Of a DNA stretch of 64,000 bases, positions 44,803 to 48,451 are shown piece after piece (within the stretch, counting starts at the first letter, position 1; each line of letters opens with the position of its first letter). Below the pieces are notes generated by a model that did no database searches, had not been told where the DNA came from, and was given only the letters and a program-made list of their open reading frames with translations. The translations under genes and the position numbers were made by a program. Location of the stretch: assembly GCA_018268395.1 (NCBI GenBank), contig JAFDWQ010000001.1:710644-774643 (forward strand), in the 5' to 3' direction. Origin of the DNA: Armatimonadota bacterium (GTDB lineage Bacteria > Armatimonadota > Fimbriimonadia > Fimbriimonadales > Fimbriimonadaceae).

Positions 44803-45975
44803 GTGGAGCCCTTGAGGATCGCGCTGTTCTCAGACAGTGCCTTGCCCGTCTTGAACGGAGTGAGCGTCAGCGTCGACGCCCTCGTGCGGTCGTTGCGCGA
44901 CGAGGGGCACAGCGTCTTCCTCTACACGTCGCTGTACGCCCGGTTCCGGGATTCCGACCCGAACGTGACCCGGTTCTTGGCCGTCCGGACGCCTTGGACG
45001 AAGGACTACCCCCTCGCCGTCCCGCCGTTCTATCCCTGGTTCCACGACTTCAAGAAAGGGCGGTTCGACATCGTCCACACGCACACTCCGTTCACGGTCG
45101 GAATGGTCGGGCTCCGGTGGGCGCAATCGCTCGAGATACCTGTCGTCGCGACGTACCACACCCATTATGACAAATACGCCCACTACGTCCCGTTCTTCCC
45201 AAAGCGCTACCTCCGGTACAAGATCGCGAAGCACACGAACTTCTATTACGGGAGCGTCGACCAGGTCGTCACGCCAAGCGAGGCGTCAAAGCGGTGGCTC
45301 AAACGGCACTCCGTAAAGCGTCCGATTACGGTCGTTCCGACGGGCGTCCCCGAACCCAAGGCTCTCGACCGCCGGGCCGTCCGGGCCGGCTTCGAAGTCC
45401 ATCCGATGCGAAAGGTCGTCCTCTATGTCGGTCGGTTGGCCCTCGAAAAAAACCTCTCGACCTTGCTCGAAGCCGCGCCATTGATGATCGAACGGGACAA
45501 GGAGGTCGAGATATGGATCGTCGGAGACGGCCCGGCACGGGACGAGTACCTGAACCAAGCTAGAGCATTGGGCATCGGAGACCGTGTGAGGTTCTGGGGT
45601 TTCAAGCCCCGTTCCGAGCTCGACGCCTACTACGCGGCCGCCGACGTCTTCGCTTTCCCGTCGATGACCGAAACGCAAGGGCTGGTCGTCTTGGAGGCGA
45701 TGTCACACGGGCTGCCGGCCGTCGTCGTCCAAGGAGGCGGCGCGTCCGGCGCCGTCGAATCCGGTCAGAACGGGTTCGTCGTCGCGAACGACCCCCATGA
45801 CGTCGCCGAGGCGGTCGTCAAGCTCCTTTCCGACCCGTTGCTCCATTCGGCCGTATCGGAACGAGCCCGGGCCACGGGCCTTTCGTCGACCGTCGGCGCC
45901 ATGACGCGTCGCGTCCTTGACGTCTATCAGGCGGCACTGTCCGGGCCGCCGTCCGTCGTGGAGGCCTTGCGGTGA
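44803..45975 (+). CDS. GT4 family glycosyltransferase
   Basis: The N-terminal GT-B domain begins IALFSDSALPVLNGVSVSV with the glycine loop of GT4 and shows HTHTPFTVGMVGL and TYHTHYDKYAHYVPFF. The C-terminal nucleotide-sugar domain has VLYVGRLALEKNLSTLLEA and the E-x7-E-like region MTETQGLVVLEAMSHGLP. Such enzymes put sugars on diacylglycerol or lipid-linked glycans at the membrane. The start is GTG 44803. It overlaps the next membrane gene as GTGA. Confidence 0.88.
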   Translation: MEPLRIALFSDSALPVLNGVSVSVDALVRSLRDEGHSVFLYTSLYARFRDSDPNVTRFLAVRTPWTKDYPLAVPPFYPWFHDFKKGRFDIVHTHTPFTVGMVGLRWAQSLEIPVVATYHTHYDKYAHYVPFFPKRYLRYKIAKHTNFYYGSVDQVVTPSEASKRWLKRHSVKRPITVVPTGVPEPKALDRRAVRAGFEVHPMRKVVLYVGRLALEKNLSTLLEAAPLMIERDKEVEIWIVGDGPARDEYLNQARALGIGDRVRFWGFKPRSELDAYYAAADVFAFPSMTETQGLVVLEAMSHGLPAVVVQGGGASGAVESGQNGFVVANDPHDVAEAVVKLLSDPLLHSAVSERARATGLSSTVGAMTRRVLDVYQAALSGPPSVVEALR

Positions 45976-46973
45976 AGTCCAACGGTCTCCGTGATTTCTT
46001 CCTGTTGACCGGAGCCCTCTTGGTCCTCAGACTGCTTCTCGGATTCCTCACGGTGCCGCCGGGACCGGCCGCGTTCCTCAGCGTCGTGTCCAGCATCGTC
46101 TTCGTAGGGATCCCGATCGTGGCCCTCTACCGCGCCGCCGATTACGGATGGGGCCGATCCGGAGGCCCCTCGGAAGACGTGGGGACGAGCCCGACACGGT
46201 CCGGTGCCAAGGTTCTGGCGTGGCTTCTGGTCTCTGGTGCGGTCTTACACGCCGCCGCGGCCCTAGCCTTGCGCACAGTGCTCCCGGCCACCGGTCCCGC
46301 TACGGTTCTCGGACAGGCCGTCGTTCAATGCGGTATCGCGCTCTGGACCCTTGGCCTGGGCGGGCTCGTCGGGCTCTTGATCAAGGACCGGAACATCATC
46401 TTGCCCGTCGCGCTGTTCCTTGCGGCCCTCGATATGTTCCTCGTGTTCCACCCGCAGGCCCCGACCGCCCGACTCGTCCGGCAGAACCCCCAGTTCTTTC
46501 AGTCGATGGCGGTTTCGGTGCCGGCGGTCCGAGAGACCTCCTCCGAGGCGGCTCCGGTCGGAGCGAGCGTCGAACCACAGGCCTTCGTCGGGCCGGCCGA
46601 CCTGCTGTTCATCGCGATGTTCTTCGTCGGGATGTCCCGGTTCGGTATGCCATTGTCGCGGACGGCAAAATGGGTCGCTCCCGTCATGGTCGTCTACCTG
46701 CTGATCGTGCTTTCAAAACTGAACCTGAACATGCTTCCCGCCTTGGTCCCGATCGGCGGAACCGTCCTTCTCGTGAACCGCCGGGAGTTCAATCTCGATC
46801 GGTCGGAGAAAGCCATGGTCTGGGGGATCGCGGTCTTTTCCGTCCTCCTCGCAGGCTTCGGCCTGTACGGCCACTTCACCGACAGGCGGCCAACAGTGCA
46901 GACTGCGCCTTCGATGCCGGGGAACGTCCAAGCACCTCCAGAACAGGCAAAGACGCCTTTGCCAGGGCGATAG
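45972..46973 (+). CDS. hypothetical multi-pass membrane protein
   Basis: The 333-residue product has about eight hydrophobic segments (for instance residues 8-27, 33-53, 78-98, 110-130, 138-155, 218-235, 240-258 and 285-303). The tail is Pro- and Gln-rich and polar. No family is recognised. Its GTG overlaps the GT4 stop, so it may support glycolipid work at the membrane. Its last 98 bases run over the end of the convergent mvaB gene; both tails are translated in opposite directions over that span. Confidence 0.6.
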   Translation: MKSNGLRDFFLLTGALLVLRLLLGFLTVPPGPAAFLSVVSSIVFVGIPIVALYRAADYGWGRSGGPSEDVGTSPTRSGAKVLAWLLVSGAVLHAAAALALRTVLPATGPATVLGQAVVQCGIALWTLGLGGLVGLLIKDRNIILPVALFLAALDMFLVFHPQAPTARLVRQNPQFFQSMAVSVPAVRETSSEAAPVGASVEPQAFVGPADLLFIAMFFVGMSRFGMPLSRTAKWVAPVMVVYLLIVLSKLNLNMLPALVPIGGTVLLVNRREFNLDRSEKAMVWGIAVFSVLLAGFGLYGHFTDRRPTVQTAPSMPGNVQAPPEQAKTPLPGR

Positions 46974-47760
46974 AGTCCACCCCGCACTCGAACCCGCTGC
47001 GCTCCAAGAGGTAGACCAAATCGTCGGTGGCCAGATTGCCGCCTGCTCCGGGAGCGTACGGACATCCGCCGAGTCCGCCGGCACTGGCGTCGAAAGACGT
47101 GAATCCCGTGTCCAAAGCGACTTGGACGTTCGCGACGGCCGTACCCCGTGTGTCGTGAAAGTGCCAAGCGACGCGGGACCGTTCGACGCCGAGCGATCGG
47201 ATGACGGCCCGTACCTCTTTCGGGACGGCCACACCGGTCGTGTCACCGATGCTCACCTCGTCCACACCGATGTCGAGCAGCCGTAGCGCCAATCTTCCGG
47301 GCAACTTGGGATCGACCTTCCCCGAGTAAGGGCATTCGAACGCCGTGCTGAGATAGGCCCGCACCCACCCGTCGGAGACCGCGCCACGGAACTCGCGGAC
47401 GACGTCAGCGAACGTCAGGATCGACTCGTCCACGGACATGTTGATGTTCTTCTGGGTGAACGCTTCGCTCGCGGCCGTGAAGACGGCGATCCGTTTCGTC
47501 CCTTGTTCCAAGGCCCGTTCCAGCCCCTTCGCGTTCGGGACGAGCGCCGACCACAAGACCCCTTCCGGAACCTGTGCACAGAGCTCGGCCGCGTCGGCTA
47601 ACTGCGGCACCCACTTGGGAGAGACGAAGCTCGTGACCTCGATCTCTTGGAGACCGGCCGCCGCCAGATCGGCCACGAACCGGGCTTTCGTTCCGGTCGG
47701 CACGAACACGGCCTCGTTCTGAAGGCCGTCGCGCGGCGCGACCTCCACGATCCTGATCAT
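46876..47760 (-). CDS. mvaB: hydroxymethylglutaryl-CoA lyase
   Basis: The TIM-barrel start IRIVEVAPRDGLQNE has the family R-D-G-L-Q-N. VTSFVSPKWVPQLAD and WHFHDTRGTAVAN supply metal ligands. GGLGGCPYAPGAGGN carries the catalytic Cys of HMG-CoA lyases. It cleaves HMG-CoA to acetyl-CoA and acetoacetate, the last step of leucine breakdown. ATG 47760 has GGAG seven bases upstream. An intrinsic terminator lies 50 bases upstream, so its expression may depend on readthrough or on a switch. The nearby biotin carrier supports a leucine or acyl-CoA catabolic theme. Confidence 0.9.
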   Translation of the reverse strand: MIRIVEVAPRDGLQNEAVFVPTGTKARFVADLAAAGLQEIEVTSFVSPKWVPQLADAAELCAQVPEGVLWSALVPNAKGLERALEQGTKRIAVFTAASEAFTQKNINMSVDESILTFADVVREFRGAVSDGWVRAYLSTAFECPYSGKVDPKLPGRLALRLLDIGVDEVSIGDTTGVAVPKEVRAVIRSLGVERSRVAWHFHDTRGTAVANVQVALDTGFTSFDASAGGLGGCPYAPGAGGNLATDDLVYLLERSGFECGVDSIALAKASLPVLEVLGRSPASKAQSALLAACR

Positions 47761-47809
47761 GGGTCCATTGTGACTCCGGTCGGTCGCTCGGGGAGGGCAA
47801 GGTCCGCAC

Positions 47810-47836
47810 AAAAAAAAGACCCCGCCTTGCGGGGCC
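47810..47836 (-). terminator. strong intrinsic terminator in the mvaB leader
   Basis: Leftward, GCCCCGC pairs with GCGGGGT around AAG (six G-C pairs plus one G-T), then eight T residues follow. It ends 50 bases before the mvaB ATG and lies inside the leader of that gene, not after a coding region. Confidence 0.85.
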
Positions 47837-48007
47837 TAGCACTTTCATCTCTTTCAGGGAAGATCCCTCGCTTCACGGCCTCTTTATCGTGCCGCCGCGG
47901 GGACCGCTCTTGCTGTCGCCAAGCCTGGCTGGCTTGCCCTCGCGAACGGAGCTGGTGCTTCGTCGTTCGTGCCAACGTGTGCTTGCGAGACAATGATATC
48001 ACAGGGA
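47810..48007 (-). ncRNA. candidate structured RNA or riboswitch-like leader of mvaB
   Basis: A promoter, about 200 bases without a convincing ORF, and a strong terminator frame this region. It can fold as a multi-branch: AGGGAT-side strand 47863-47871 pairs with 47985-47989 and 48005-48008, CACG/CGTG extends it (47976-47979 with 47874-47877), and two hairpins lie inside (47943-47948 with 47964-47969; 47920-47925 with 47931-47936). The 3' strand of the closing stem can instead form a local hairpin, 47856-47868. Such exclusive pairings before a terminator suggest a switch. It is unlike the tmRNA, RNase P RNA and SRP RNA signatures I know. Confidence 0.5.
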
Positions 48008-48013
48008 TAGCCT

Positions 48014-48042
48014 CTTATATGCGACTATCTAGGAAATTTCAT
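48014..48042 (-). promoter_or_regulatory. promoter of the structured leader
   Basis: Leftward, ATGAAA (48042-48037; four of six to the -35 consensus), a 17-base spacer, then TATAAG (48019-48014) as -10. It sits in a conspicuously AT-rich island of the otherwise GC-rich region. Confidence 0.5.
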
Positions 48043-48061
48043 AAAAATTCTTTAATGGAGT

Positions 48062-48451
48062 CTAGTGGGTCCCCACGACATGGAGGCAGCAGGTGACGAC
48101 CGTGGCCCCGAAAACGGCCAGAAGCAGCATGTCGAACCCTTCCGCCGTCTTCGCGAACGCGTGGACCGAGCGGCACGCGTCGGAGGTCGAATCGGCCCAG
48201 ATGTTGGAGAGATCGACCTGGACGAGATCAGGTAGCCGTTTCGCCAAGGAGAACTGGCCGCGGACTTCGAGCATCGGGTGGTTCTTCGTGGTCACCTCGC
48301 TCCGGGTGATGCTGAAATAGCCCATCCGCGACAGCGAGGCCAAGATTTTCCGAAGCGCGTCGCCCCGTTGCCACGAGTCGGCCAGGCTGAACGCGGCTAA
48401 ATGGTGTTCGAACTGTCTTTGGAACTCGGTCGGAGTGCAACTATGACTCAT
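48062..48451 (-). CDS. small C-tail-anchored hypothetical protein
   Basis: The 129-residue product is soluble for about 100 residues and ends in one hydrophobic helix (GFDMLLLAVFGATVVTCCLHV), which suits a tail-anchored membrane protein. No motif is recognised. Its ATG overlaps the biotin carrier stop by 11 bases, so it is translated as part of that unit. The AT-rich promoter island lies just after its stop. Confidence 0.55.
   Translation of the reverse strand: MSHSCTPTEFQRQFEHHLAAFSLADSWQRGDALRKILASLSRMGYFSITRSEVTTKNHPMLEVRGQFSLAKRLPDLVQVDLSNIWADSTSDACRSVHAFAKTAEGFDMLLLAVFGATVVTCCLHVVGTH

Follow-up and report, generated by a model that had tools for sequence, protein, structure and literature searches.

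A conserved, previously unlisted RNA next to mvaB in Fimbriimonadaceae, probably the product of a small RNA gene

Comparison of related genomes indicates that the intergenic region upstream of mvaB in an Armatimonadota bacterium of the family Fimbriimonadaceae encodes an RNA that is real, strongly conserved, and previously unlisted. In the 64-kb stretch of DNA analyzed here (the window), this RNA would span about 175 nt of the minus strand (47810–47987), with an ORF for a 129-residue protein (48062–48451, minus strand) on one side and mvaB, the gene for hydroxymethylglutaryl-CoA lyase (47760–46876, minus strand; PF00682 HMGL-like, E = 2e-40), on the other. We read the region from about 47987 to 47810 as probably an autonomous small noncoding RNA gene that is separate from the mvaB unit. 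A search with the covariance models of Rfam 15 (4227 families) at gathering thresholds finds only tRNAs in the window and no match to a known RNA class at the locus, where the best sub-threshold matches reach about 21 bits against cut-offs of 49–70, and the family is new to Rfam 15. No small-RNA study of Armatimonadota was found in the literature searched. The sequence-only reading that preceded this analysis had proposed an undescribed riboswitch or small RNA here, and its undescribed structured RNA with promoter and terminator holds up, as judged from conservation, compensatory changes, and the lack of an Rfam match.

Extent, conservation, and fold of the RNA

The promoter region lies in an AT-rich island (48005–48067, no strand assigned), as first read: this segment has the highest 50-nt AT content in the whole 64-kb window, and 47986–48066 is its most AT-rich 70-nt place. 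The leftward promoter first proposed, ATGAAA-17-TATAAG, is present at 48042–48014, but the conserved element is an extended −10, TGATATCAT (TG-N-TATNNT; 47993–48001, minus strand), some 20 bp downstream, and the TATAAG falls at the −35 position of this second promoter. The extended −10 is found at the same place in all eight RNA-bearing loci (G000–G003, G010, G013, G155, and G027, the last with its TG one base further up). Because 48001–47993, and not TATAAG, is the conserved −10, the RNA is predicted to start near 47987, 6–7 nt past that element; its 3′ end is placed in the T-run of the terminator. The strong intrinsic terminator noticed earlier (47810–47837, minus strand) consists of a stem at 47837–47817 followed by eight Ts, and relatives form it from different sequence with compensatory changes. 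The terminators of the RNA end in 5–8 U; their predicted probability is 0.80 in G002, where the automatic reading included upstream helices, and 0.95–1.00 in the other seven RNAs.

When 61 genomes are searched at the DNA level, three congeners and G010, a member of the same family, match strongly. The covariance model R1, made from the five sequences of G000–G003 and G010, scores 112–152 bits in those genomes; its next-best match, at 21.8 bits, is in G013, where synteny, promoter element, and terminator are all the same. Gathering the upstream regions of mvaB across the order added G027 and, doubtfully, G155. A model of the 3′ half (R3; seven sequences, G013 and G027 among them) scores 69 bits in G013 and 32 bits in G027. 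Conservation in relatives, which had been put forward as a check, was thus found as homologous elements upstream of mvaB in six other Fimbriimonadaceae genomes (G001, G002, G003, G010, G013, and G027); with the window genome, G000, and the doubtful G155 these are the eight RNA-bearing genomes referred to here. At all eight loci the RNA immediately precedes mvaB and shares its strand, and in G000–G003 and G010 the gene order is amidotransferase, biotin-carrier protein, small ORF, RNA, mvaB. Most of the remaining genomes in the family lack the RNA and have mvaB directly adjoining, or overlapping with, the gene before it. As far as the genomes compared indicate, the RNA is restricted to a small group within Fimbriimonadaceae, and searches with R1 and R3 find no believable copy away from mvaB. 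Other model matches (G013 C1:1124780, G025, G018, G005, and others) were rejected as copies, as they resemble coding stretches or plain terminators; weak BLAST matches in further genomes also resemble coding stretches.

The most striking part of the RNA is an invariant 29-nt core (GGGATCTTCCCTGAAAGAGATGAAAGTGC; 47839–47867, minus strand) that is identical in five genomes. In pairwise comparisons of the five species, this segment (47867–47839, GGGAUCUUCCCUGAAAGAGAUGAAAGUGC) is 100% identical, and the remaining RNA is 43–61% identical (mean 53%). The mvaB proteins of the species with the invariant core share 63–70% identity with that of the window, and on this comparison the core appears to be under unusually strong constraint. 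A protein-coding origin was considered and rejected: G000 has an open frame here, yet in the relatives the stretches that separate the conserved blocks contain stops and indels of non-triplet length.

Folding of single sequences is ordinary (z of −1.55 and −0.53), and the case for an RNA therefore rests on comparison. The modeled order is a 5′ hairpin (P1/P2), a linker, P3, P4, a short single-stranded stretch, and the terminator. P1 (47921–47984, minus strand) pairs 47984–47981 with 47924–47921 and 47976–47971 (GUUGGC) with 47933–47928 (GCCAGC), encloses a variable hairpin, P2, and is kept among relatives as GUUGGC/GCCAGC, GUUGGU/ACCGGC, and GUUGGC/GCCAAC. It links the 5′ end with the central part of the RNA (47984–47971/47933–47921); conservation does not extend to the closed multibranch first drawn, in which both ends were joined. 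The conserved linker GCGACAGCAAGAGCG (47905–47919, minus strand), recognized in the alignments, is followed by P3 (47865–47902, minus strand), in which 47902–47897 pairs with 47871–47865, two pairs are changed on both sides, and 97% of cells are paired. P4 (47847–47864, minus strand) lies inside the core and pairs 47864–47860 (AUCUU) with 47851–47847 (GAGAU), as the MFE folds of several relatives show, and a free single-stranded segment, GAAAGUGC, separates it from the terminator.

Counting of pairs in the five sequences gives 90% of cells paired and four pairs changed on both sides, a value as high in only 2 of 500 shuffles. The drawn structure is far better than all slid versions of it, a control that leans toward the structure since the pairing was drawn from the same sequences. 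With seven sequences, shuffle support is weaker, at 37–74 of 500 on the measures of change and covariation. The covariation suggested as a check is accordingly modest in the seven-sequence set, and compensatory changes keep the pairing in P1, P3, and the terminator. The proposed alternative pairing exists on paper, with 47865–47871 in a long-range stem or 47856–47868 in a local hairpin. P4 and the local hairpin at 47868–47856 are mutually exclusive, and the block varies so little that they are indistinguishable by covariation; G027 favors P4 (AUCCU/AGGAU) and G013 the local hairpin.

Transcription of the RNA and of mvaB

The mvaB start codon is at 47760, and the T-run ends 50 nt before it, as first noted. 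The good ribosome site then assigned to mvaB does not stand: its GGAG is 13 nt from the ATG, which is too far, and a −10-like hexamer, CACAAT (47767–47772, minus strand), 6 nt before the ATG is the better supported element and is proposed as a leaderless mvaB promoter. A −10-like hexamer 5–7 nt before the mvaB start occurs in five of the eight RNA-bearing genomes (p = 0.002 versus coupled mvaB) and, among the 17 RNA-free genomes whose mvaB is spaced, in 10 (p = 1e-4), as against 4 of 45 where mvaB is coupled; these counts were scripted and take related species as independent, so the p-values are optimistic. Six control windows further upstream hold the hexamer in none of the eight RNA-bearing loci. 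The mvaB of G003 has a full TTGGCA-17-TAGAAT, seen by eye.

Across 464 kb of G000, TATAAT-like hexamers are enriched 6–11 nt before ATG (7, 4, 4, 4, 4, and 3 versus about 0–2 elsewhere), and many genes of G000 probably give mRNAs with no leader or a very short one, so that leaderless genes would be normal in it. The hexamers are most frequent at a distance of 6 nt upstream of the ATG. A literature search on leaderless genes in Armatimonadetes yielded no relevant paper. Two transcription units are favored because of the −10 hexamers at mvaB, the leaderless habit of the genome, and the probable terminator that comes without a conserved antiterminator. The RNA would be transcribed from the extended −10 at 48001–47993 and would end at its own terminator (47837–47810), and mvaB would be transcribed separately from a promoter right at its start codon. 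The RNA gene would thereby sit between the upstream genes (the biotin-carrier gene and the small ORF) and mvaB. The earlier view of the element as an mvaB leader that supplies a ribosome site is not supported.

A cis-acting 5′ leader of mvaB, whether riboswitch or attenuator, is the chief competing account, which we hold to be possible though doubtful. Transcription would start past 48001–47993, the fold would decide between termination at 47817 and read-through, and the leader would possibly sense an acyl-CoA or leucine-related ligand. The RNA is found strictly with mvaB in each of the eight genomes, and on the same strand, as a cis element would be, and the GGG of the core pairs either with P3 or locally, in mutually exclusive ways. 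In G027, a GGGAGG lies 4 nt past the T-run and a GTG start 5 nt later, without a −10, so that mvaB seems to need an internal promoter or read-through; no convincing −10 is seen at the mvaB of G155 either, and read-through at mvaB is likely in both genomes.

Set against this account is a terminator that is highly probable and has no conserved alternative: without its 3′ arm, the 5′ arm of the terminator finds a partner that differs from genome to genome among the eight RNAs. The mutually exclusive terminator and antiterminator of an attenuating riboswitch were thus not found, because that partner varies. Most RNA-bearing genomes have a leaderless-type −10 at mvaB, and RNA-free relatives have one too; most relatives manage without the RNA, the translation of their mvaB being coupled to that of the upstream gene. 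Aptamer conservation is typically dispersed rather than confined to one contiguous block, and the contiguous 29-nt invariant block beside the terminator is unlike it. The riboswitch half of the first reading is weakened by the same two features, the probable terminator without a conserved partner and the −10 of mvaB itself. A combined form, in which a new lineage-specific riboswitch or attenuator class for HMG-CoA lyase (leucine catabolism) toggles its core between P3/P4 and the local hairpin while mvaB has a leaderless promoter in addition, strikes us as unlikely. No paper on HMG-CoA lyase and riboswitches was found in the literature searched. As to the separateness of the favored small RNA from the mvaB transcript, five of the eight genomes have a −10 at mvaB, while G027 suggests read-through.

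Neighboring genes, likely function, and candidate pairing sites

The 129-residue protein encoded upstream of the RNA has no Pfam match and is found upstream in G001–G003, G010, and G013 as well. Further upstream on the same strand are genes for a biotin/lipoyl-carrier domain protein, a C26 glutamine amidotransferase, and a 2-oxoacid dehydrogenase E2; these fit a branched-chain/leucine catabolic neighborhood. On the other side, a probable membrane protein without a Pfam match (45972–46973, plus strand) is convergent with mvaB and occupies the same place in G001–G003 and G010.

For the autonomous small RNA, the likeliest function is that of an Hfq-type base-pairing sRNA. The independent promoter and intrinsic terminator that characterize Hfq-type trans-acting sRNAs are both present in the sequence, and G000 and almost every relative carry an hfq gene. 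The RNA would act in trans through its invariant 3′ core, whose conserved single-stranded or loop segments, the P4 loop CCCUGAAA and GAUGAAAGUGC, would be the natural pairing site, and, with an Hfq-type U-tail at its 3′ end, it may depend on Hfq.

A search of five genomes for the complement of the 3′ part of the core found no conserved target, and the numbers of matches were not far above the reversed control, near chance. Three complement matches with three mismatches read as signal-peptide codons of likely genes. One exact 17-nt complement of the core (GCACTTTCATCTCTTTC) occurs in G010, downstream of enolase (eno) and about 17 nt before a short ORF; an exact 17-mer is expected by chance at about 0.002 over the five genomes, a figure that rises when the match may fall anywhere within the core. 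The surrounding stretch (C1, about 251090–251318; L198:1470–1698, plus strand) consists of a promoter-like GGCTACAAT, GCACTTTCATCTCTTTC, the short ORF, and a terminator. This stretch after eno is a possible target or sponge of the RNA. The complement, which is not found in the relatives of G010, is a lead and not a result; it also accounts for the second R1 match in G010, which is this site and not a full copy of the RNA. An unexplained short repeat of 21–29 nt, CTTTCATTTGTGCCTCGGCCCAGCC, is common to G010 (L198:1633–1661), G003 (intergenic; L229, about 1501–1529), and G014 (reverse strand of a long open frame; L230, about 1501–1521).

Comparison with known RNA classes

That there is no functional RNA here, and that an operon terminator and promoter region alone are conserved as DNA-level signals, we regard as improbable. 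The ordinary folding energy of single sequences would suit such an explanation, as would the small number of sequences and the modest covariation counts; against it stand the conserved order in which promoter, P1, linker, P3, core, and terminator follow one another and the compensatory changes seen in P1, P3, and the terminator.

A diverged 6S RNA, which would fit the size of about 175 nt, the stand-alone promoter and terminator, and the lack of a recognized 6S in the family of the window, is very improbable and was rejected on the Rfam model, an order-specific model, and structure: RF00013 does not match the locus even when filters are permissive (genome maximum, 17.2 bits), the order-specific model R2 (127–133 bits on its own members) matches none of the RNA-bearing loci, and true 6S RNAs of the order form a long rod whose ends pair as CCCUGCG...GCGGGG, a feature absent here. 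As a separate observation, 92 of the 291 phylum members have an RF00013 match above its cut-off; they include genomes from other families of the order but none from the family of the window. 6S is thus unrecognizable in G000 and Fimbriimonadaceae, though found in other families of the order and across the phylum. In this family it has been either lost or diverged beyond RF00013 and R2. The RNA described here thus resembles 6S RNA in length and in being a stand-alone unit and differs from it in sequence, in the lack of a closing rod, and in the lack of a covariance-model match.

With transcription-attenuating riboswitches and leader RNAs, it shares a structured RNA with an intrinsic terminator at its end, placed before a metabolic gene; it differs in having no conserved antiterminator, no Rfam riboswitch match, and, apparently, a start-site promoter at the gene that follows. 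The case illustrates that a small RNA gene placed before a leaderless gene can pass for a riboswitch leader. Compared with Hfq-dependent trans-acting sRNAs, it stands apart in lying outside the known Rfam families and in being always next to mvaB, and it is like them in its own predicted σ70-type promoter, a length within 100–250 nt, a conserved stretch, a terminator with 5–8 U, and the presence of hfq.
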